A stretch of DNA of 39,027 bases, from positions 1 to 39,027 of the forward strand of contig JANXMC010000096.1 of assembly GCA_025354825.1 (NCBI GenBank), given 5' to 3'. A program made the position numbers and the translations under genes. The notes under the pieces are model-generated. The model had not been told where the DNA came from, did not search any database, and saw only the letters and a list, made by a program, of their open reading frames with translations. Source of the stretch: Myxococcales bacterium (GTDB taxonomy: Bacteria; Myxococcota_A; Polyangia; Polyangiales; Polyangiaceae). Positions within the stretch are counted from its first letter, which is position 1. Each line of letters begins with the position of its first letter. Positions 2,146-20,237 of this stretch are shown one piece after another.

Positions 2146-3684
2146 TCACAACCCTGTTCGTATCGTTCGCCCTTTGACCAAGTCTGTCTCGGCGCTCGGC
2201 GCGGCGGTCGTCGTAACCGCCGCGGAGGCGGACGGCGCGGCTTTCGGATCTTTCGCCGCGCGCAACGCGGCCAACGCCGCGGCCTCTTTTTCGCGCTCGC
2301 GGCGCGACTGTGAGGTCGACGTTGATGCAGCCGTGGCGCTGGGTGCGGCCGACGCCGACGGGCTCGCCGCAACGGCGGCTTCGACGGCCGGCGCGATCGT
2401 GGCCACCACTGGCGGCGGCGCAATCGGCGGCGCCGTCACGACGGGCTCCGCAACCACGCCGATACCCTGCGCACCGGCGCTGGGCGGCGGTGCGCCGCGC
2501 CCCTGCATCACTTTGAGCGCGGCGAAGCCACCGCCCGCGAGGAGCACCACCGCCGCGACGGCGATGCCGGCCGCGACACCCGACGAGCCGCGGGGCGGGT
2601 CGCCCTGCGTGCGAATGGGCGCGGCGACGTTGGGGATCGACCCCGCCGTTTTCGAGAGCTTGCCTGCGACCACCATGGGCGGGCCGCCCGCCGCCGACGT
2701 CTGCATATCGGGCGAGGGCGTCACGACGTGCATCACCGGCAGTTGATGGGCCTGCGTCGTCACGTTTCCGACGTTGCCGCCGCCTGCGAAGGACGGGCTC
2801 GAGATTCCGGTCGTCATCCCGAACGAGGACATCCATTCGTGGACGGCTTGGGCGAACTCTTGCGCGGTCTGGAAGCGCGTGTCGACCTCGCGGGCCATCG
2901 CTTTCATGATGATCGCCGCGAAGCGCGGATCGAGCCCGGCGACGATCTTCGTAGGGTCGGGCGGAGGCTCGAGGACGATCTTGAACATCAGCTCGTTGAA
3001 CGTGTCGGCCAAGAACGGGACTTGCCCGGTGGCGCACTCGTAGAGGACGACGCCTGCAGAATACAAATCCGAACGGTGGTCGGTGCTCTTCGCGCCGCGC
3101 GCCTGTTCGGGAGACATGTAATAGGGCGTCCCGATGACCGCGCCCGTGCGCGTCATGCTCATGGCCGAATCGCCTGAGAGGTTATTGAACTTCGAGACTC
3201 CGAAGTCGACGATCTTGACGAAGTCGCCCGCCGTCTTCTTGTTTCGCACCAGAAAGATGTTATCCGGCTTCAGATCGCGGTGAACGATGCCCGCGTGGTG
3301 GGCGGCGCCGAGCCCTTCGAGCATTTGCAACATGAGCGGCGCAATCTCGTGGGCGGCCATGCGCCCTGACGAGCGAATGCGGCTCGAGAGATTTTCGCCG
3401 TCCAAGTATTCCATGACCATGTAGCGCGCGCCGCTCGGCAGCTCGCCCAGGTCGAACACTTCGACGATATGGTCCGAGCCTATCTTGCCCGCGGCCTGCG
3501 CCTCGCGCTCGAAGCGCTCGACGGCGGCGCCGTTGTTGGCAATCCCCGCGTGAAGGACTTTGATGGCCACGCGGTGGTGAATACGGACGTTCTCACCCTC
3601 GTAGACGGCGCCCATTCCGCCTTCGCCCAGGAGGCGGACGATGCGGTACTTCTTGTCGATGAGCTCGCCGATTGTGACTTCCAT
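2146..3684 (-). CDS. Membrane-anchored Hanks-type serine/threonine protein kinase
   Basis: This 512-residue protein should phosphorylate Ser/Thr residues on partner proteins. The kinase domain covers about residues 14-285, with glycine loop LGEGGMGAVYEG, ATP-binding Lys42 in AIKV, catalytic loop HRDLKPDN (Asp137), the DFG Asp160 and the activation-segment end GTPYYMSPEQ. All catalytic residues are present, so it is predicted active. A Pro/Ala/Gln-rich linker leads to one transmembrane segment at about residues 369-391, followed by an Ala/Pro/Ser-rich tail that would be extracytoplasmic and shows no recognisable sensor domain. The gene follows the PEGA-protein gene by 42 bp and lies near a PP2C phosphatase, so the three probably form one phosphosignalling unit. 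A purine-rich GAGAGGG precedes the ATG. Confidence 0.95.
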   Translation of the reverse strand: MEVTIGELIDKKYRIVRLLGEGGMGAVYEGENVRIHHRVAIKVLHAGIANNGAAVERFEREAQAAGKIGSDHIVEVFDLGELPSGARYMVMEYLDGENLSSRIRSSGRMAAHEIAPLMLQMLEGLGAAHHAGIVHRDLKPDNIFLVRNKKTAGDFVKIVDFGVSKFNNLSGDSAMSMTRTGAVIGTPYYMSPEQARGAKSTDHRSDLYSAGVVLYECATGQVPFLADTFNELMFKIVLEPPPDPTKIVAGLDPRFAAIIMKAMAREVDTRFQTAQEFAQAVHEWMSSFGMTTGISSPSFAGGGNVGNVTTQAHQLPVMHVVTPSPDMQTSAAGGPPMVVAGKLSKTAGSIPNVAAPIRTQGDPPRGSSGVAAGIAVAAVVLLAGGGFAALKVMQGRGAPPPSAGAQGIGVVAEPVVTAPPIAPPPVVATIAPAVEAAVAASPSASAAPSATAASTSTSQSRREREKEAAALAALRAAKDPKAAPSASAAVTTTAAPSAETDLVKGRTIRTGL

Positions 3685-4904: not shown

Positions 4905-6122
4905 TCATCGCATTCGCCCTGCAAGGTGGCGTGCGAGCCTTTCGTACAGAGCGGACGCAAGGCGTGCATCGGCCGCGCACACTTCACGAAAGTCGTCGGC
5001 CCGAAGGCGCAATACGCGAAGCGGCGTCGTGGCTTTGCAAAGCACGTTCGACTGCCCCATTCCGAGGAGCGATTCCGGGTAAAGCAGCGCGCTCGCACCA
5101 AAGGCCTGCCCGCCGGGCGCCTCGATTTCGCCTTGAAGCACGACGTAGGCGACCCGGTCGGTCGTCGACACGCGAGGCAAAGGTTCACCTTCGTGGATAT
5201 CGACCTCCACGGCCATCGCAAGGGCGCGAAGAAGGAGGCCGTCGGGCATGTCGCAGAGGAGAGGACAGCGTCGTGCGGTTTCGAAATCCCGCGCATCGAG
5301 GATCGGGTCGCCGTTGTCCTCGCGAATGCGCGTGGGAGGCCCGACGTCGATCACCAACGCCGTCGCGTTGTCGCGGCCGCCCCGCGCGAGGGCCGCGCCG
5401 ACGAGCGCCGTAGCCGCGTTCGCGCTGCCTGGGACAGCGGCGTGGGTCGATAGAATCGACTCGTCGCCGAGCATCTCGTGAACACCGTCCGTGGTCACGA
5501 CCAGCCTGTCGCCCGGTGCCACGTGAACGACGACGCAATCCGAATAGAGAACATCGGCGCGGCCAATCGCGTTCAGGAGTTGGTTATGCACCGTCGCCCG
5601 TTTTGCGAGCGTCACCTTGCCTTGGGCAACGAGGAGCGCCCGCGAGTCGTGATCGTGGGTGACTTGAATCGTCGTCGACGGCCTCACGAGGTAGATGCGA
5701 CCGTCGCCCACGTGCAGCAGGAAGATGCGGTCGCGCACAAGAAGCGCGACGTCGAGCGTGCACCCCATGGCGCTCTGCCCCTCGCGCGACATCGCTTCGG
5801 CGCGCACGGCGGCGTTCGCTTTCTCGGCTGACTTGCGCAGGATTTCGAAGATTCCACGGCGCGCTTCGAGGCTCGGCTCGCGGCGATAGGCGTCGATGGC
5901 GGCGACCGCGCCGGTGTCACCGAGAGACGCAAGCACCGTGTCGACGCAGAGCTCGGCGGCGACCTCGCCGGCAAGGTGGCCACCCATGCCGTCGGCTACC
6001 GCGAAGAGTGAGAGGGATGGATCCACCCGCCATACATCTTCGTTGTTCGAGCGGACGTGCCCGATGTGCGTAACGCCGGCGTAATCGACTGCGAAATCGA
6101 AACGCGGCACGTCGCGATTCAT
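4905..6122 (-). CDS. PP2C-type protein phosphatase fused to a cyclic-nucleotide-binding-like domain
   Basis: This 405-residue cytoplasmic protein should remove phosphate from Ser/Thr residues. The N-terminal PP2C domain (about 1-260) carries the metal-binding motifs RSNNED (Glu28/Asp29), ADGMGGH (Asp44) and GGRDNATALVIDV. The C-terminal part, about 280-400, has the beta-roll pattern of CRP/CAP cyclic-nucleotide-binding domains: CPLLCDMPDGLLLRAL, DIHEGEPL, VLQGEIEAPGG, YPESLLGMG, then LRLRADDF and C-terminal helices. The classic phosphate-binding cassette is not obvious, so ligand binding is uncertain. It heads a minus-strand run leading to a PEGA protein and a Ser/Thr kinase, so the natural guess is that it opposes that kinase. 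No clear ribosome-binding site precedes the ATG. Confidence 0.9.
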   Translation of the reverse strand: MNRDVPRFDFAVDYAGVTHIGHVRSNNEDVWRVDPSLSLFAVADGMGGHLAGEVAAELCVDTVLASLGDTGAVAAIDAYRREPSLEARRGIFEILRKSAEKANAAVRAEAMSREGQSAMGCTLDVALLVRDRIFLLHVGDGRIYLVRPSTTIQVTHDHDSRALLVAQGKVTLAKRATVHNQLLNAIGRADVLYSDCVVVHVAPGDRLVVTTDGVHEMLGDESILSTHAAVPGSANAATALVGAALARGGRDNATALVIDVGPPTRIREDNGDPILDARDFETARRCPLLCDMPDGLLLRALAMAVEVDIHEGEPLPRVSTTDRVAYVVLQGEIEAPGGQAFGASALLYPESLLGMGQSNVLCKATTPLRVLRLRADDFREVCAADARLASALYERLARHLAGRMR

Positions 6123-8466: not shown

Positions 8467-9465
8467 CTACGGAAGAACGGTCGTGAAACATTCGCTTGCG
8501 ATCGGCGCTTTTGCGATAACGCCGAGGTCGACGAGCTGAGACGCGAGCGTCGCGAAGCGCGCTTCGTCCATCGCGCCCAAGCCCTGCGCTTTCGACGCGT
8601 CGGTCTCGATGAGCGGCTTCTGGGCTTCGGCCGCGGCCGCGAACGTTTCGGCATCCATCGCGCCGTTGAGCTTTTGCATGACGGCGTTGGCAGGCTTCGG
8701 ATCGCGCAGATACGCCTTCCACCCATCGGCCGATGCGCGCACGAAGGCGCGAACGGCGTCGCGCTTGTCGCGGAGCATCGCCCCGCGCGTGATGATCATA
8801 CTGGCATATGGATTAAAGCCCGATTCGGCGCCGAGGAACACCTTTGCGCGCACACCGCGCTTCTTCACGGCGATGGGCTCGCTCGTCACGTAGCACTGCT
8901 GCGCATACGTAGCGTCCGTGAGAAACTTCGCCACGCCGCCGTCGTAGGGGACGATCGATACGCCGTGGAAGCCGAGCTTCTTTCGTAAGTACATTCCAAA
9001 CGGCAAACCGAGCTCGAGGGCGAGAATGCCACTTTTGAGATCGGCGAGGCTCGCGACGTTTTGTTCCTCGTGGACCATGACACCTTGGGGCGAGACTTGA
9101 AACGTCGCGAAGATGGCGACCACGTCGGCGCCGCGAACGCGGGCGGTCACCACGTCGTCTGCGCCCGCGATGCCGAAGTCGGCCTGGCCGCTGGCGACGA
9201 GCTGCACGACGGGCGACCCCGCGCCGCCGCCTTTGAGCTCGACTTCGAGCCCTTCGCGCGCGTAGGCGCCGTTTTCGCGTGCGGCGTAGAGGCCGCCGAA
9301 CTCGGGCTCGGCGACCCAATTGAGCTGCACGCGCAGCTTCGTCGCGGGGGGCGCGCCGTCGCTTGCGTCGTTCGTCGTAGCTGCGGGCTTGCGGCACCCG
9401 GCGATCACCAAGAAGGCTCCCGTGGCCAATGCGAATAACGGAATGCGTCGAATCGTCGTGACCAT
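8467..9465 (-). CDS. ABC importer substrate-binding lipoprotein, NMT1/THI5/SsuA class
   Basis: This 332-residue protein is the extracytoplasmic binding component of the importer encoded just upstream. The ATG at 9465 gives a clean lipoprotein signal, FALATGAFLVIAGC, followed by a short Ser/Ala linker. The mature part matches the NMT1/THI5-like fold: KLRVQLNWVAEPEFGGLYAA, then GQADFGIAGADDVVTAR, SPQGVMVHEEQNVASLADLK and a helical C-terminus. This class binds pyrimidine precursors of thiamine, riboflavin, sulfonates or nitrate. The opening strand QLNWVAEPEFGGLYAA is most like hydroxymethylpyrimidine and related nucleobase-precursor binders, but the ligand cannot be decided from sequence. The start lies 14 bp after the permease stop, so the three transporter genes are one operon. 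Confidence 0.88.
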   Translation of the reverse strand: MVTTIRRIPLFALATGAFLVIAGCRKPAATTNDASDGAPPATKLRVQLNWVAEPEFGGLYAARENGAYAREGLEVELKGGGAGSPVVQLVASGQADFGIAGADDVVTARVRGADVVAIFATFQVSPQGVMVHEEQNVASLADLKSGILALELGLPFGMYLRKKLGFHGVSIVPYDGGVAKFLTDATYAQQCYVTSEPIAVKKRGVRAKVFLGAESGFNPYASMIITRGAMLRDKRDAVRAFVRASADGWKAYLRDPKPANAVMQKLNGAMDAETFAAAAEAQKPLIETDASKAQGLGAMDEARFATLASQLVDLGVIAKAPIASECFTTVLP

Positions 9466-9479
9466 TCGGAAGATGCCTC

Positions 9480-10268
9480 TCAGTTGTTTCTTTCGTATCG
9501 CCGAAGGGCAACTGCCGACAGGGTTGAAATGCCAACGAACATCGCAATACCCACGAAGGCCGACGCGAGAACGGCGGCGAAAAGCAGGTCTGTACGCAGC
9601 TGGCGGTACGCCGTCATCACGACGATACCGAGGCCTGGGCTCCCTTCGGCGAAGCCTGCGACGAGCTCGCCGACGATGGCGCCTATCACCGCGAGACCGC
9701 ACGCGATGCGGAGACCCGTGGTGATGTTGGGCAGCGCGTGGGGGAGCTCGAGCTTCACGAGAACCTGTGCGTGTGACGCACCATAGAGCTTGAAGAGATC
9801 GCGAAGCGAAGGGTCGACGGCGCGCACGCCGGCAAGCGTATTCGTGATTACGGGGAAGACCGAAACGATGAATGCCGAGGCCGCGACGGCGCGGGGGCCG
9901 ACGCCGAACCAGAGAACGAGAAGAGGCGCGATGGCGACGATGGGAACGGTCTGAAGGATAAGCGCGTAGGGGTAGAACGCCCGCTCGACGAGGCGCGAGG
10001 ACGCGAGCACGAACGCCGTGACGACGCCGAAGACGGCGCTGGCGACGAACCCCGCGAGGGCGGTGAGCGACGTCGTGAGGCAGGCACTCGCGAGGGGGCC
10101 CGCGTTTGCAAAAGCCGCGGCCGCAACGGCGCTCGGTGGCGGCAAGAGATAGGCGGGAATGGCAAGTCCACGCGCGATCGACTCCCAAATGAGAATGCCA
10201 ACGATTGCTGCGCCCAACGGCGGAAGAAGGATCGCGGCGACGGCTTTCGCCCGGCGGGCGGCGCTCAC
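9480..10268 (-). CDS. ABC importer permease, ThiX/SsuC (BPD_transp_1) class
   Basis: This 262-residue protein is the inner-membrane permease of the importer. It has about six hydrophobic helices, beginning with AILLPPLGAAIVGILIWES. The cytoplasmic EAA loop that docks the ATPase is visible at LRDLFKLYGASHAQVLVKLELPHALPNI. Its length is normal for the family. The GTG start at 10268 overlaps the stop codon of the ATPase gene in a GTGA, so translation is probably coupled. The binding-protein gene follows after 14 bp. Confidence 0.92.
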   Translation of the reverse strand: MSAARRAKAVAAILLPPLGAAIVGILIWESIARGLAIPAYLLPPPSAVAAAAFANAGPLASACLTTSLTALAGFVASAVFGVVTAFVLASSRLVERAFYPYALILQTVPIVAIAPLLVLWFGVGPRAVAASAFIVSVFPVITNTLAGVRAVDPSLRDLFKLYGASHAQVLVKLELPHALPNITTGLRIACGLAVIGAIVGELVAGFAEGSPGLGIVVMTAYRQLRTDLLFAAVLASAFVGIAMFVGISTLSAVALRRYERNN

Positions 10269-11056
10269 GTGTCGCCCCCCTCGAGCGCGCTCAAGAGCTT
10301 CGCCGCCTCGCGGGCGAAGCCGGGCGTCGCGCGAGTGGCAGACGTGCGCGCGCCGTTTTCCGGATCGAGGGTAATCGGCTGGTCGTAGACGACGCGGGCG
10401 GGTCGCTTGGAGAAAACGATGGCCCGCTCAGCCAAGAACGTAGCCTCGAAGATCGCGTGGGTGACGAAGAGGATCGTGAGCTTTCGCTCTTTCCAAATGG
10501 CAAAGAGTCGCTCGTCGAGCCGCTGACGCGTGAGCTCGTCGAGGGCGGCGAAGGGCTCGTCCATCAAAAGCAACTTGGGCTTGGTGACGAGCGCGCGGGC
10601 GATGGACGCACGCATGCGCATGCCGCCCGAGAGCTCACGGGGGTAGCGGTTGGCGGCGTCGGTCAGCTCCACCTGCGCGAGCGCTTCGAGCACCGCGGCG
10701 TCGCGCTCGGCGTGCGAAACGCCGCCCAGCTCCAGGGGGAGCGCGACGTTTTCGGCGACGCTTCGCCACGGAAGGAGGTGCGCATCTTGGAACACGTAAG
10801 CGATCTCTCCTCGCCCGCGCGACGCCACCTCGACCGAGCCTTCGTCGGGCGCATCGAGCCCCGATACCATTCGCAGAAGCGTCGATTTGCCGCAGCCCGA
10901 AGGGCCGATGAGCGCGCAGAACTCGCCTTCTTCGAGCGCGAAGCTCACGCCGTCGACCGCGAGGACGGAGGCGCCGTCATTCGTGAGACCGCCGAGAGGG
11001 CCTGTTTTCTCTGGGAATCGGCGCTTCACGCCGCGGATGTCGACTGTCTTCGGCAT
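10265..11056 (-). CDS. ABC importer ATP-binding protein, nitrate/sulfonate/thiamine-precursor class
   Basis: This 263-residue ATPase powers the importer. The ATG at 11056 (MPKTVDIRGVKRRFPE) is chosen over a longer Arg-rich upstream extension because the ABC domain starts there. It carries Walker A GPSGCGKST, Q-loop YVFQDAHLLPWRSV, signature LSGGMRMR, Walker B LLLMDEPFAALD and the switch His in LFVTHAIFEA. The Q-loop DAHLLPWRSV pattern is typical of SsuB/TauB/ThiZ-type ATPases. It is the first gene of the operon and is divergent from the lipoprotein gene at 11242. No thiamine-pyrophosphate riboswitch was recognised in the leader. Confidence 0.93.
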   Translation of the reverse strand: MPKTVDIRGVKRRFPEKTGPLGGLTNDGASVLAVDGVSFALEEGEFCALIGPSGCGKSTLLRMVSGLDAPDEGSVEVASRGRGEIAYVFQDAHLLPWRSVAENVALPLELGGVSHAERDAAVLEALAQVELTDAANRYPRELSGGMRMRASIARALVTKPKLLLMDEPFAALDELTRQRLDERLFAIWKERKLTILFVTHAIFEATFLAERAIVFSKRPARVVYDQPITLDPENGARTSATRATPGFAREAAKLLSALEGGDT

Positions 11057-11241
11057 AGCTTCGAGGGGGCGCGCTCCTGGCAATAGGGTGTGACGCAGCG
11101 AGGCGCAATATGCTCGGTGTCGCACGATTGTCGCAGAGCGCGGGCTACGCGCGCGCCACAACGAGACGCGAGACGGACGCACGAGAGCGAGACGGGGGCG
11201 CGCTCGCGCAGCTAGAACATGTTTCGGACGGGAACGTTGGG

Positions 11242-12471
11242 ATGCGAGAAACGCGGCTGCGACGAAACATGGCGGGCGCGCCCGTGCGCGTAGCCGTGCG
11301 CGAAAAAGCCCTGAGTCTCTCGTTCGCGCGCATCGTCGGGCTGGTTCTCGCGGTGCCTGCCGCCGTGGTGACGGCGTGCGTGGCGAGCGCCGAGCACCCC
11401 GTCGTCGACGCATCGATGGCGAGCGATGGTGGCGTTGCCGACGGGGCGCCCGACCCCTGCGCACCGACCCCCTACGACGCTTCGACCCTCGAAGGCGATG
11501 CCGCCGGATGCGCGGAGCTTCGCCTCTTGCCGTGTGGAATGCCGCCGAAGGTCGAAATGCGCGGCTGCTCTCCGGATTTGCTCAGTTGCGCGCAGATATG
11601 CAATCTCGAGGCGCTCTTCCGATGTCAGCTCTCGACGGCCTCGTGCGACACCGAGGCGGGCATTTACCCCGACGCGGCGCTCCTTTTCGAGTGCATTACC
11701 TGCGCTGGGAGCGGTGGGCGGCGCCCCCGAGGCCTCGTGCCGATGCGCGCGCGAGCTTCGACGCTCGCCGCAGAGGGTGACCTCGCCGCCGTCGGCGCGT
11801 ACTTCGCAAAGCTCGCCTACCTCGAGGCCGCGTCGGTCCGAGCGTTTCGCGAGCTCGCGGCGGCGCTCACGCGTTTCGTGGCGCCGCGTGCGCTCGTCGT
11901 GGCCGCGCACGCTTCCTCGAGCGACGAGCGGCGCCATGCCCGCGCCGTGCGGCGCCTCGCGGCTCGCTTCGGAGTAGCGCCGCCACGCCCTGCGGTCGCA
12001 CGCGAGCGTGGCGCGCGGGCGCCGTCGCTCGCCGAGATGCTCGACGACAGCGTCGTCGAAGGGTGCATCTTCGAAGGGTATTCCGCCCTGCTTTTGCAGT
12101 ACCAAGCGCGAGCGGCAGGGGATCCGCGCACGGCCCGCACCCTCTCGCGTATTGCGGACGACGAGGCGCGCCACGTGGCGCTGGCGTGGGAGATCCTCGC
12201 GTGGGGGTTGCCGAGGGTTGACGTGTCAACCCGCTGCCATCTACGTCAGTCGCTCGAGCGCGCCCTCGCGACGCTCGAAGCCCAGGCGGCGCCGCCGCCG
12301 AATGCCGACGTCGCGCGCATCGCCGGCGCGCCGTCGCCAGAGGCCACGCGCCGCCTCACGTTCGCCTTTACACGTTTCGTCCGCGCCGAGGCCGACGGCG
12401 TCTTCGGCGTCGTGCACGCCGCGTCGAGGCTCGACACGAACGACTTCGCGTTATCGACGACGCTCACGTGA
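11242..12471 (+). CDS. Secreted lipoprotein with a di-iron ferritin-like domain
   Basis: This protein of about 409 residues has an export signal (SFARIVGLVLAVPAAVV) ending in the lipobox VVTAC, an Asp/Gly-rich linker, a Cys-rich stretch with about nine Cys (LLPCGMPPKVEMRGC to ECITCAG) and a C-terminal four-helix domain. That domain shows the full di-iron ligand set: Glu195 in LAYLEAAS, Glu229-x-x-His232 in SDERRHAR, Glu273 or Glu278 in VVEGCIFEGYS, and Glu308-x-x-His311 in DDEARHVAL. This is the E/ExxH/E/ExxH layout of ferritin-like oxidases and iron-storage proteins. An extracytoplasmic location is unusual for this fold. The start at 11242 is uncertain; ATG 11269 is equally possible. Function (iron handling, oxygen or peroxide chemistry) is unknown. 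Confidence 0.8.
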   Translation: MRETRLRRNMAGAPVRVAVREKALSLSFARIVGLVLAVPAAVVTACVASAEHPVVDASMASDGGVADGAPDPCAPTPYDASTLEGDAAGCAELRLLPCGMPPKVEMRGCSPDLLSCAQICNLEALFRCQLSTASCDTEAGIYPDAALLFECITCAGSGGRRPRGLVPMRARASTLAAEGDLAAVGAYFAKLAYLEAASVRAFRELAAALTRFVAPRALVVAAHASSSDERRHARAVRRLAARFGVAPPRPAVARERGARAPSLAEMLDDSVVEGCIFEGYSALLLQYQARAAGDPRTARTLSRIADDEARHVALAWEILAWGLPRVDVSTRCHLRQSLERALATLEAQAAPPPNADVARIAGAPSPEATRRLTFAFTRFVRAEADGVFGVVHAASRLDTNDFALSTTLT

Positions 12472-12511: not shown

Positions 12512-14041
12512 ATGAGAACGACCCGACGCCCGTGGCCTCTTTCGCTCCCCTCGCTTCTCGCCGTCACCGTGCCTGTCGCCGCGTTCGCGACGATCGCCTT
12601 CGTGGCGCCCGCCTGCTCGACGTCGAGCACCGTTGCCGAGCCTCCGCCGCCGAGCGACGACGCGGGCGTCGCCGAAGTGCTCGCCCCGCCGCCCATCACG
12701 CGGACGGAGACCGAAGCGACACTCGCCCCCAAACGGAAGGCGTGCACGTTCAAGGCGGGCGCGTGGCCGGCCGAGAGCATTGGAAACGACTACCCACTTG
12801 GCGCCGATATTCCGATTAAGCACGTGATTGTGATCATGCAGGAGAACCGCTCTTTCGATCACTACCTTGGCCGCTTGGTCGCGCAGAACTACTATAAGAA
12901 AGGCGATTTCACCGAAGGCGGGGAAGGGTTCTCCCACAACGACGAGCTCGACGCACCGCCCGACGGATGGTCGAACGCCGACAGCGACGGCACCCTCGTC
13001 GTGCCTCACCCCGACAACGAATATTGCTATGGCGTAAATCATAGTTGGGGCGACATGCACGACGACTACAACGACGGGAAGCTCGATCACTTCGTGACGA
13101 ACAACAACCCGAACGGCCAGCGTGCGTTCTTCTACCAGGACGACACGGTCATTCCTTTTTACTACGCTCTCGCGAGCACGTTCTCTGTCGGCGACAGGTA
13201 CTTCGCGTCGGTGATGTCATCGACCTGGCCCAATCGCCTTTTCGCGATGGCGGCCACGTCCTTCGGCGTCGGTGACAACTCGTTCGTGACCCTCGACACG
13301 CTCGACAAGCCCGTCGCCCAGATTTTCTCGCTTCTCGAGAAGGGCGGCCACTCGTGGAAGGACTACACCGACGGGCCGCACCAGGTGTCTTTCTTTGCAA
13401 AGTTCGGCTGGAGCCCGGCGGCGATTGCCCACTACGGAAACATTCGGTGTGATCTCCTCGCCGACATAAAGAACGATACGCTCCCCGACGTGAGCTACGT
13501 GATGGGCGACGAGATCGATCAGACGTCGGACGAAGGGCCGTCGGCGCTTCCCGGGATTGGTGGCCAGCTCGTCGAAGGGGTCGTCCGCCAGCTCTTCACG
13601 TCGCCCTCGTGGAAGGACACGGTCGTCTTCATCAATTACGACGAGAACGGCGGAACGGCCGACCACGTACGCCCCGCCGATGCGTGCCCGCCCGACGACT
13701 TCGAGCCCCACGACGAGAACAACGCGAAGCTGCCGGGCGACTTCAAGCAGACCGGCTTCCGGGTGCCGTTCATCGTCGTTTCGCCCTATTCAAAGGCGCA
13801 CTACGCGTCGCACACGGTCTTCGACCACGCATCGGTCGTGAGGTTCATCGAGGCGAAGTTCGGCCTCCCTGCGATGACAGGGCGCGACGCGAACGCGAAT
13901 ATCCCTCTCGATATGTTCGACTTCAAAAACCCGCCGTTTCTCACGCCGCCGGACATCAAAGCCCACACCACGGTGCCGCAAGACGTGCTGACGAAGTGCA
14001 ATCAGGTCTACGCGCCGCTCACGTGCGATCGACCGCAGTGA
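12512..14041 (+). CDS. Phosphoesterase/phospholipase C-family lipoprotein
   Basis: This 509-residue protein belongs to the phosphoesterase family that includes bacterial phospholipase C and acid phosphatases. It has a signal peptide ending in a lipobox (FVAPAC) and a short Pro/Asp linker. The family hallmarks follow: KHVIVIMQENRSFDHYLG near residue 110, SSTWPNRLF near 235, VVFINYDENGGTADHV and VPFIVVSPYSK, then FDHASVVRFIEAKFGL. The length is about normal for the family. It should hydrolyse phosphate esters, possibly phospholipids, outside the cytoplasm. It follows the ferritin-like lipoprotein by 40 bp and may share its transcript. Its last 23 bases overlap the end of the convergent AI-2E-family gene. 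Confidence 0.92.
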   Translation: MRTTRRPWPLSLPSLLAVTVPVAAFATIAFVAPACSTSSTVAEPPPPSDDAGVAEVLAPPPITRTETEATLAPKRKACTFKAGAWPAESIGNDYPLGADIPIKHVIVIMQENRSFDHYLGRLVAQNYYKKGDFTEGGEGFSHNDELDAPPDGWSNADSDGTLVVPHPDNEYCYGVNHSWGDMHDDYNDGKLDHFVTNNNPNGQRAFFYQDDTVIPFYYALASTFSVGDRYFASVMSSTWPNRLFAMAATSFGVGDNSFVTLDTLDKPVAQIFSLLEKGGHSWKDYTDGPHQVSFFAKFGWSPAAIAHYGNIRCDLLADIKNDTLPDVSYVMGDEIDQTSDEGPSALPGIGGQLVEGVVRQLFTSPSWKDTVVFINYDENGGTADHVRPADACPPDDFEPHDENNAKLPGDFKQTGFRVPFIVVSPYSKAHYASHTVFDHASVVRFIEAKFGLPAMTGRDANANIPLDMFDFKNPPFLTPPDIKAHTTVPQDVLTKCNQVYAPLTCDRPQ

Positions 14042-16841: not shown

Positions 16842-19800
16842 GTGTCGAGCGAGACCGAGCAGAACCGCGAGCTCCAAAAACGCCTCCGCATCGCACTCCT
16901 CACGCCTGTCGCCCTCCTCGTGGCCGTGGGCGCCCTACTGGGGCTCCAGCTCGTCCGAATGACAGGGGATGCGCATTGGGTCGAGCACTCGGATGAGGCG
17001 CTCTCGATGGCGCATACCCTGCAAAAGGACATCGTCGATCAAGAGACCGGGCTTCGAGGTTTCCTCCTCACCGACGACCGGCTCTACCTGGAGCCCTACG
17101 AGAGCTCGCATCCAGGACACACCATCACCACGCTGCACGCCTTCGTGTCGGACAACCCGGGGCAGATGGCGCGCGTCGACGCCATTCAGAAAACCTACGA
17201 GGCGTGGTCGGACGACACGTCGTCCCTCTCGCGAGGAGTTCCCTCCGCCGACCTCCGCACGCCGGCGTCGATGCGCCTTCGCAAGCGCCGGATGGACGAA
17301 GTGCGGGCGTCGCTCCAGTCGTTCATCGACGAAGAGACGAGTCTCCGCAAGACGCGCGCGCAGAAGTCGGAGTCGTCCGCCACGTGGACCAAGTGGATCT
17401 TCATCGGCCTGTTTCTGACGGCCGGCGCCGGTCTCTCATTTCTGTCGCGGCGCCAGCTGGAAGCGATTGCGTCGATCTTCGGTGCCGCGCTCAAAGAGCA
17501 GCACGCCGCGCGCGTGGCGCTCGAAGCGCAAGAGTGGATTCGCACGGGGCTTATCGTTATCGCCGAGAAAATTCAGGGCGACATGACGCTCGACCAGCTC
17601 GGCGACAGTGTCCTCACCGCGCTCGTCCCCTATGTGAAGGCCGATATCGCGGCGATCTTCACGACGGACGGCGCGACATGGAAGCGGCGCGCGGGCTTTG
17701 CCCTCGACAGCCGCGCGGTGGGGCAAGACACCTTCGGCAAACGCGAGGGTCTCGTCGGCCGCGCGGCGTCCGGCACGGCCATCGTGCACCTGAAAGAGGT
17801 GCCGGCCGATTTCATGAAAGTTCGATCGGGCACCGGCGAGCGCCTGCCGGTCGAGATCGTATTGGCCCCAGCGATTACCGAAAAGGACGTTCGCGCCGTC
17901 GTCGAGCTTGGCTTCTTGAGGCCCGTCGAGCCGCGCTGCCTCGAGCTCATCGAACGCCTCGGCGAGAGCATCGCCCTCGCGGTCCGTTCGGCGGAATACA
18001 AGGAGAAGCTGCGGGAGCTTCTCGAAGAGTCGCAGCGACAGGCCGAAGAGCTTCAGACGCAGCAAGAAGAGCTTCGGGTCGCCAACGAGGAGCTCGAAGA
18101 GCAGAGCAAGCAGCTCGAAGAGGGGCAGTCGCAGCTCGAAGAGATCAACACGCGACTCGAAGAGAAAGCCCACGAGCTCGAGGGGACGCAACGCGCCGTC
18201 ATCGACAAGGCGGCGCAGGTCGAGCAGGCGAGTCGGTACAAGTCCGAGTTCCTGGCGAACATGTCGCACGAGCTTCGGACGCCGCTCAACAGCTCGCTGA
18301 TTTTGTCCAAGCTGTTGGCTGACAACCGAGACGGCAATCTCACGGCGGAGCAAATTAAGTTCGCCGAGACGATCTACTCCGCGGGGAACGATCTCCTCAC
18401 GCTCATCAACGACGTACTCGATCTCTCGAAGATCGAGGCGGGCAAAGTCGACGTGAATACCGAGAACGTCGTCGTGTCGCGCATCACCGACGCGATGAAG
18501 CGCACCTTCGAGCCCATCGCCCGCGATAAGGCGCTCCGATTCGAGATCCTCGTCGACGACGGCGCGCCCTCGGCCATCGACACCGATCCGCAACGGGTCG
18601 AGCAGATTTTGCGTAATCTCCTTTCGAACGCGTTCAAGTTCGTCGAGCGCGGCGAAGTCTCGTTGCGAGTCACGGGCAGCGGCGAGCGGATTCAGTTCGC
18701 CGTTCGCGATACCGGAATAGGGATTCCGAAGGAGCAGCAGGGGCTCATCTTCGAAGCGTTCCGCCAAGCGGACGGGACGACGAATCGCAAGTACGGCGGC
18801 ACGGGGCTCGGGCTATCGATCTCGCGCGATCTCGCGAGGCTGCTCGGCGGCGAGCTCGAGGTCGAGAGCATCCCCGGCGTGGGGAGCACGTTCACGCTGT
18901 CGATCCCGTGGAAGCGCGCCATCGTACCGGCGCGCGCCGCGTCGATGCCGCCGCCGCGCTACCCGGCGGCGCCGATGTCGGTCGACCCTCGCGCACGCGC
19001 GCATGCCGCGAAGATCGCATCGACGGCGACCATCGCCGACGACCGCGCGACCATCGACGCGCGACGCCGCACGGTGCTCGTCGTAGAAGACGACGTGACC
19101 TTCGCGCAGATCGTTTTCGACCTCGCCCACGAGCTCGATTTCCAGTGTGTCGTGGCCCACGACGCCGACACGGGCGTGGCCCTCGCGGCCGAGCACCTGC
19201 CGAGCGCCGTGATTCTCGATCTCAACCTCCCCGACCACTCGGGCCTCTCGGTGCTCGATCGCATGAAGCGCAATCCGGCGACGCGTCACATCCCGGTCCA
19301 TGTGGTGTCGGCGATGGATTACACGCAGGCCGCGCTCTCGATGGGCGCCATCGGCGTCGCCAAAAAGCCCATCAAACGCGAAGAGCTCGTCGCAGCTTTC
19401 CGCAAGCTCGAAGAACGCTTCACGCGCCGGCTGCGCAGGCTGCTCATCGTCGAAGACGACGCGGTTCAACGCGACAGCCTATGCCTCTTGCTCGGCGGGA
19501 GCGATGTCGAGACGATCGCCGTCGGTACCGTGAAAGAGGCCCTCGCCGCCCTCGGCACCAGCTCCTTCGACTGCGTCGTGACCGATCTCACCCTCCCCGA
19601 CGCCTCGGGCTTCGACCTCTTGGATCGCATGGACGCCGACGAGGCCTACGTGTTTCCGCCCGTCATCGTCTACACGGGCCGCTCCCTCACGGCGGCCGAA
19701 GAGCAGCGCCTCCGAAAGCACTCGTCGTCGATCATCGTGAAGGGGGCGCGCTCACCCGAGCGCCTCCTCGACGAGGTGTCGCTCTTTCTCCACCGCGTCG

Positions 19801-20237
19801 AATCCGAGCTGCCGCCCGAGCGTCAGCGCATGCTCAAGCAGGCGCGCGATCGCGAGGCGTTCTTCGACGGACGCCGCATTCTCGTCGTGGAAGACGACGT
19901 GCGGAACATCTTTGCGCTGAGCAGTGTGCTCGAGCCGAAGGGTGCAAAAGTTCTCATCGCCCGAAATGGCCGCGAAGCGCTCGAGCTACTCGACAAGACC
20001 CCCAACGTGGATCTCGTGTTGATGGATATCATGAGGCCCGAGATGGGCGGCATCGAAGCCACCCGCGAGATACGCAAACGACCGCATTTTGCGAAGCTGC
20101 CAATCATCGCGCTCACCGCGAAAGCGATGAAGGACGACCAAGAGAAGGTCCGCGACGCGGGCGCGAGCGACTACATCGCAAAGCCCCTCGACGTCGAGAT
20201 GCTCCTCTCGCTGCTCCGCGTGTGGATGCCAAAATGA
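16842..20237 (+). CDS. CHASE3-GAF hybrid histidine kinase with three receiver domains
   Basis: This 1131-residue membrane sensor kinase has, in order: TM1 (about 16-38), a CHASE3 extracytoplasmic domain (QETGLRGFLLTDDRLYLEPY), TM2 (about 188-207), a GAF domain (about 230-385), a Glu/Gln-rich coiled coil (EELQTQQEELRVANEELEEQ), HisKA with phospho-acceptor His476 in MSHELRTPLN, HATPase_c with GGTGLGLSISR, and three C-terminal receivers with phospho-Asp793, Asp915 and Asp1062. All key residues are present; the third receiver reads MDIMRPEMGG where MMPEMDG is usual. The start codon is GTG. The stop overlaps the ATG of the CheR gene (ATGA), so this is the first gene of a four-gene coupled operon. 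Stimulus and outputs are unknown. Confidence 0.95.
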   Translation: MSSETEQNRELQKRLRIALLTPVALLVAVGALLGLQLVRMTGDAHWVEHSDEALSMAHTLQKDIVDQETGLRGFLLTDDRLYLEPYESSHPGHTITTLHAFVSDNPGQMARVDAIQKTYEAWSDDTSSLSRGVPSADLRTPASMRLRKRRMDEVRASLQSFIDEETSLRKTRAQKSESSATWTKWIFIGLFLTAGAGLSFLSRRQLEAIASIFGAALKEQHAARVALEAQEWIRTGLIVIAEKIQGDMTLDQLGDSVLTALVPYVKADIAAIFTTDGATWKRRAGFALDSRAVGQDTFGKREGLVGRAASGTAIVHLKEVPADFMKVRSGTGERLPVEIVLAPAITEKDVRAVVELGFLRPVEPRCLELIERLGESIALAVRSAEYKEKLRELLEESQRQAEELQTQQEELRVANEELEEQSKQLEEGQSQLEEINTRLEEKAHELEGTQRAVIDKAAQVEQASRYKSEFLANMSHELRTPLNSSLILSKLLADNRDGNLTAEQIKFAETIYSAGNDLLTLINDVLDLSKIEAGKVDVNTENVVVSRITDAMKRTFEPIARDKALRFEILVDDGAPSAIDTDPQRVEQILRNLLSNAFKFVERGEVSLRVTGSGERIQFAVRDTGIGIPKEQQGLIFEAFRQADGTTNRKYGGTGLGLSISRDLARLLGGELEVESIPGVGSTFTLSIPWKRAIVPARAASMPPPRYPAAPMSVDPRARAHAAKIASTATIADDRATIDARRRTVLVVEDDVTFAQIVFDLAHELDFQCVVAHDADTGVALAAEHLPSAVILDLNLPDHSGLSVLDRMKRNPATRHIPVHVVSAMDYTQAALSMGAIGVAKKPIKREELVAAFRKLEERFTRRLRRLLIVEDDAVQRDSLCLLLGGSDVETIAVGTVKEALAALGTSSFDCVVTDLTLPDASGFDLLDRMDADEAYVFPPVIVYTGRSLTAAEEQRLRKHSSSIIVKGARSPERLLDEVSLFLHRVESELPPERQRMLKQARDREAFFDGRRILVVEDDVRNIFALSSVLEPKGAKVLIARNGREALELLDKTPNVDLVLMDIMRPEMGGIEATREIRKRPHFAKLPIIALTAKAMKDDQEKVRDAGASDYIAKPLDVEMLLSLLRVWMPK

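Follow-up and report, generated by a model that had tools for sequence, protein, structure and literature searches.

A predicted myxobacterial lipoprotein family with a ferritin-like di-metal domain, a Cys-rich head and a possible role in extracytoplasmic O2 activation

The window, the whole 39,027-nt stretch of Polyangiaceae DNA analyzed here, encodes a lipoprotein that we consider, at about even odds, to be an extracytoplasmic O2-dependent di-metal oxidase or oxygenase. The protein has a lipobox, ten conserved Cys residues in its head and a complete E/ExxH/E/ExxH ligand set. Its ferritin-like fold is predicted with confidence, its fold matches are of the oxygenase type and it belongs to a multi-copy family.

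Export signal, lipid anchor and Cys-rich head

The ORF and its N-terminal features are as follows.

11242..12471, plus strand: whole ORF, 409 aa, lipoprotein with a C-terminal ferritin-like di-metal domain
11242..11379, plus strand: signal peptide region with lipobox VVTAC and lipid-modified Cys46 (from the sequence and a family lipobox rule)
11458..11703, plus strand: disulfide-type head, residues 73-154, with ten Cys and five possible disulfides
11701..11736, plus strand: conserved linker, Cys then GRRPxGL, ahead of the bundle (R160 in 36/36, G159 in 33/36, P162 in 32/36 and C154 in 32/36)

The coordinates and residue numbers of the first-pass annotation were correct, the start at 11242 being one among several candidates, with codon 10 also possible. 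The protein comprises, in order, the signal peptide and lipobox, a low-complexity spacer, the head, a GRRPRGL linker and a helical C-terminal domain. The N-terminus had been read as a lipoprotein signal and, with Cys46 in its lipobox, it has the hallmark of bacterial lipoproteins. Three lipobox rules were tried on the upstream regions of the family. The first matched 62/125 family regions versus 4/125 reversed regions and 21/400 other ORFs; the second, at its loosest setting, gave corresponding counts of 52/125, 7/125 and 29/600; and the third matched 76/121 family regions versus 1/121 reversed regions and 34/1000 other ORFs. Many of the regions missed by the rules have a lipobox by eye, and some are cut by contig ends. 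Promoter and terminator scans returned no match, and a search for repeats returned nothing beyond short two-copy matches.

The head was expected to contain about nine Cys; the Cys-rich stretch is present and the count is ten (residues 73, 90, 98, 109, 116, 120, 128, 135, 151 and 154). All ten are kept in 6/6 members with the same head, namely the window protein and those of loci L002, L042, L060, L071 and L089. No Pfam family matched the head above its cut-off, and a sub-threshold match to TACI-CRD2 (2.3e-4) was read as reflecting Cys spacing only.

Extent of the family and diversity of heads

The protein had been regarded as unusual. It is not isolated, being one of many paralogues of a family that occurs across the phylum: the source genome (8.98 Mb) contains six further whole-protein matches, making at least seven copies, and eight matches in all to a domain profile. 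Among 282 sampled genomes of the phylum, a single-protein search (E ≤ 1e-5) found a match in 109, and a 30-row profile, A1 (E ≤ 1e-10), found a match in 120. The A1 profile omits six of an earlier 36 rows, those most diverged or partial. A scan of GTDB with a motif derived from A1 yielded 276 pattern matches, 271 of which encode relatives. The best 80 of these 271 were kept and, of 79 loci, 78 are from Myxococcota and one is from a MAG labelled Pseudomonadota. Genera with the family include Corallococcus, Myxococcus, Sorangium, Nannocystis, Polyangium, Minicystis and Labilithrix. Family genes also occur as tandem pairs or triples (e.g. loci L154, L155, L170 and L174). Searches of PHROGs and, by tblastn, of plasmids returned no match.

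The Cys-GRRPxGL linker is common to most members of the family, and iterated profiles merged nearly all heads into one group through it. The heads themselves differ, falling into groups of 62, 19, 6, 5 and 3 plus six pairs, with 32 single heads. A FastTree phylogeny was built from 142 cores, and placing the 11 head groups on it takes 14 changes; at least 10 would be needed in any case, and shuffled assignments average 42.9. The heads therefore mostly track the phylogeny of the core, and free shuffling of heads between cores is unsupported. In the source genome, two tandem paralogues on another contig (locus L010, contig C145, 332-2898, minus strand) have related but distinct Cys heads.

Di-metal ligands and conserved core residues

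The conservation of the predicted ligands was evaluated in two sets of relatives, 57 non-redundant ones collected with no motif filter and 85 from the motif-based scan; fractions below are given in that order.

11824..11826, plus strand: ligand Glu195, helix 1 (57/57 and 85/85)
11926..11937, plus strand: ligands Glu229 and His232, ExxH, helix 2 (57/57 and 85/85)
12064..12066, plus strand: near-invariant Cys275, one helical turn N-terminal of Glu278 (54/57 without a motif filter)
12073..12075, plus strand: ligand Glu278, helix 3 (57/57 and 85/85; aligned to the Glu of helix 3 in relatives of known structure)
12163..12174, plus strand: ligands Glu308 and His311, ExxH, helix 4 (Glu308 in 57/57, His311 in 56/57; both in 85/85)

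The E/ExxH/E/ExxH pattern of ferritin-like di-metal proteins is thus conserved and, as anticipated at first pass, the relatives retain the Glu/His set. All six ligands occur together in 56/57 and 85/85 relatives. Every row was collected with the A1 profile (E ≤ 1e-10), which may favor typical members and which was itself built from rows trimmed around two E..H/Q motifs. The sole exception in the set of 57 is L020, which has Gln instead of His311. The motif of the second scan spans residues 273 to 282, which introduces a bias at positions 273, 275 and 278 of the 85-row set but not of the other.

The helix-3 ligand had been given as either Glu273 or Glu278. It is likely Glu278, as judged from the sequences: this residue is invariant in the relatives collected without a motif filter, whereas Glu273 is present in 53/57, and in the family-profile alignments Glu278 is paired, albeit weakly (E about 0.004 to 0.06), with the Glu on helix 3 of both sulerythrin and M. 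tuberculosis DesA2. At the same weak E-values, Glu308 and His311 align with the ExxH of these two proteins. Glu273, substituted in four of the 57 relatives, was dropped as a candidate.

Beyond the ligands, Phe202 is invariant and Asn270, Cys275, Trp316 and Trp321 are conserved in most members, with Ser at position 270 in the window protein. From the alignments, this conservation exceeds what metal binding alone would need. Cys275 sits three residues ahead of the predicted ligand Glu278 in an exported protein and could be a pocket residue.

Predicted structure and relation to known proteins

11785..12405, plus strand: ferritin-like domain with helices at residues 182-211, 216-242, 263-291, 295-325, 328-347 and 366-388 (structure models)

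AlphaFold2 models were obtained for the whole protein (pLDDT 78.5, pTM 0.72), with scores of more than 90 across the bundle and mostly 50-70 in the head, and for the domain alone (pLDDT 93.1, pTM 0.89). Both contain the four-helix bundle of ferritin-like proteins, as do the fold matches. In the models, Glu195 is 16 residues short of where helix 1 ends and Glu278 is 13 short of where helix 3 ends; Glu229 and Glu308 each come 13 residues after their helices, 2 and 4 respectively, begin. These mirrored positions place the predicted ligands at one height, with Glu195/Glu229 and Glu278/Glu308 at matching heights on paired helices. The structure prediction proposed in the first-pass annotation accordingly yielded a bundle of the ferritin-like type, its predicted ligands in register.

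The top fold match was SSO1313 (Z 16.3, 195 aligned, rmsd 3.9), followed by aldehyde-deformylating oxygenase (ADO; Z 15.7, 186 aligned, rmsd 3.2), R2lox (Z 15.5, 199-208 aligned, rmsd 3.5-4.0) and PaaC (Z 15.0-15.1), the four being near-tied. Together with PaaA and VlmB (Z 14.6), the matches span Z 14.5-16.3. Foldseek E-values were weak (best 6e-3), with TM scores mostly of 0.5-0.6. In these models, the fold supports membership of the ferritin-like superfamily and of its oxygenase-like branch, and no single named enzyme.

The closest parallels differ from the window protein in several respects. ADO (cADO) is cytoplasmic and is not known to have a signal peptide or a Cys head. It is about 13-14% identical to the window protein, and its Pfam family is not among the matches. 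The likeness lies in the fold and in the ligand order E, ExxH, E, ExxH, both common to other ferritin-like enzymes too; according to PMC4286721, the ADO ligands are E32, E60, H63, E115, E144 and H147, and fatty acids are held beside the di-iron site. R2lox, which resembles the window protein in fold, binds a fatty acid in a pocket beside its di-metal site, according to PMC4118035; however, the two are 12-18% identical and the NCBIfam R2lox model was matched by only 2/30 family members, weakly.

The window protein exceeded no Pfam or NCBIfam cut-off, and none of the libraries tested contains a curated model of the family. Weak Pfam neighbors were Rubrerythrin, AurF and DUF455, as well as Ferritin_2 for some members. 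The family has weak profile similarity to rubrerythrin (PF02915) and sulerythrin, but the window domain falls below the PF02915 cut-off (20.4 versus 22.8 bits) and the protein has a larger bundle and is exported and lipid-anchored. The AurF/VlmB N-oxygenases (PF11583), which include the fold match VlmB, were matched weakly by 9/30 members (best 2.6e-7), while the window protein scored 16.9 bits versus a cut-off of 29.6. Ferritin_2 (PF13668), an extracytoplasmic ferritin-like domain, was matched by 6/30 members (best 1.4e-4), the window protein not being listed among them. Ferritin_2 includes secreted eukaryotic proteins; we know of no Cys head in that family.

In the open-licence literature searched, we found no description of this family, and PMC4417212 and PMC12055684 are unrelated to it. 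Such a fold and ligand set have been seen before, while its export, its lipid anchor, the disulfide head, the near-invariance of Cys275 and the expansion of the family are apparently undescribed as far as the searches reach.

Possible functions

The extracytoplasmic di-iron protein proposed at first pass withstood the fold and ligand checks, although neither as a lone oddity nor with a phosphoesterase as its general partner. We infer which metals are bound in vivo, the chemistry with O2, the class of substrate, what the head does and the location at the outer membrane as follows. The lipoprotein would be anchored at the outer membrane or cell surface, where its C-terminal bundle would bind two metals (Fe/Fe or Mn/Fe). 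The di-metal site would activate O2 outside the cytoplasm and oxidize a substrate, perhaps a lipid or other hydrophobic molecule, and the disulfide-stabilized head may hold a partner or the substrate near the site.

Of an oxidase, a peroxide scavenger and an iron binder, the modelled fold favors an O2-activating oxidase or oxygenase. A family of enzymes that act on a range of targets would fit the many paralogues, in which differing heads are joined to a shared, conserved core, and the source genome encodes a separate, ordinary rubrerythrin-family gene, which we also count in favor of an oxidase or oxygenase. Counting against it, helical bundles easily yield middling Z-scores, the near-tied match PaaC is a non-catalytic subunit, no electron donor was recognized among the neighbors scanned, and iron loading outside the cytoplasm would need its own route. 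More members match Rubrerythrin than any other Pfam family (20/30 at E ≤ 0.1, best 6.8e-8), and its ligand pattern is the same, which would suit an extracytoplasmic rubrerythrin-like scavenger of peroxide or O2 that protects the envelope. We consider this unlikely given the shortfall of the window protein against PF02915, the extra C-terminal helices and listed fold matches that point to oxygenases, and the absence of a rubredoxin family from the Pfam matches. The complete di-iron ligand set outside the cytoplasm and weak EncB/EncC-type ferritin-like matches are in turn consistent with a ferroxidase or iron-binding surface protein that captures or stores iron, a role that appears distinctly unlikely: the best fold matches listed are oxygenases, storage ferritins being absent from the 50 listed (an absence that excludes nothing), and no iron-uptake genes occurred among the neighbors scanned. 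The substitution of His311 in L020 could indicate a protein that only binds, its metal site being structural or no longer capable of chemistry; with the ligands otherwise invariant and the pocket residues conserved across very diverged sequences, this is the least probable of these functions.

Extending the oxidase or oxygenase reading to the family, we tentatively suggest, as possible rather than probable, that it is a phylum-wide, multi-copy myxobacterial family of surface-anchored O2-activating di-metal enzymes, with diverse disulfide heads and a near-invariant Cys by the metal site, that oxidize lipids or secreted molecules extracellularly. To our knowledge, the characterized O2-activating ferritin-like oxygenases act inside the cytoplasm, which supplies both iron and reductant. 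For an exported, expanded family in predatory soil bacteria, the questions would be how iron and electrons reach the site, which molecules are oxidized on the cell surface and why a single genome keeps seven or more copies.

The adjoining phosphoesterase and other neighbors

12512..14041, plus strand: PF04185 phosphoesterase lipoprotein adjoining the family gene (PF04185 3.3e-65; about 40 bp past the family-gene stop)

The partner gene had been described as encoding a phospholipase C-like lipoprotein. The adjoining product is indeed a PF04185 protein with a lipobox-like APAC; however, it scored 183.6 bits against the PC-PLC equivalog TIGR03396, for which the cut-off is 580.25, and the pairing is not general. 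The two genes could encode a dedicated pair in which, for example, the family protein oxidizes a lipid that the phosphoesterase releases. The short gap, shared strand and lipobox-like sites on both proteins argue for such a pair, as does the retention of the arrangement in Minicystis rosea (L042), in which the phosphoesterase gene is directly downstream of the family gene and the two products are 73% (over 457 aa) and 43% (over 336 aa) identical to their respective counterparts. At locus L071, a PF04185 gene is directly upstream of a same-head family member. Chance adjacency should be rare because the source genome has only six PF04185 matches. Nevertheless, a PF04185 gene lies beside the family gene at only the window and two other loci of 142, and among 30 phosphoesterase loci only that of the window has a family gene within about 1.5 kb. 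The other 29 have none; on these counts a general pairing was rejected, and two independent cases of adjacency are too few to claim a system. Overall, a dedicated pair seems quite improbable.

Divergent to the family gene, at 8467-11057 on the minus strand, are genes for an ABC importer (NMT1-type substrate-binding protein, permease and ATPase) that is probably unrelated to it. The window also encodes a hybrid histidine kinase (16842-20237, plus strand), which combines CHASE3, HisKA and HATPase domains with three receiver domains, as well as a Ser/Thr protein kinase and a PP2C phosphatase (2146-3684 and 4905-6122, minus strand). In Minicystis rosea, too, a PP2C gene (L042 3206-5365, minus strand) lies upstream of the family gene. 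Finally, glutamine synthetase genes occur near family genes at several Corallococcus-type loci and in one Polyangia MAG (L055 8761-10248, L083 6678-8150).
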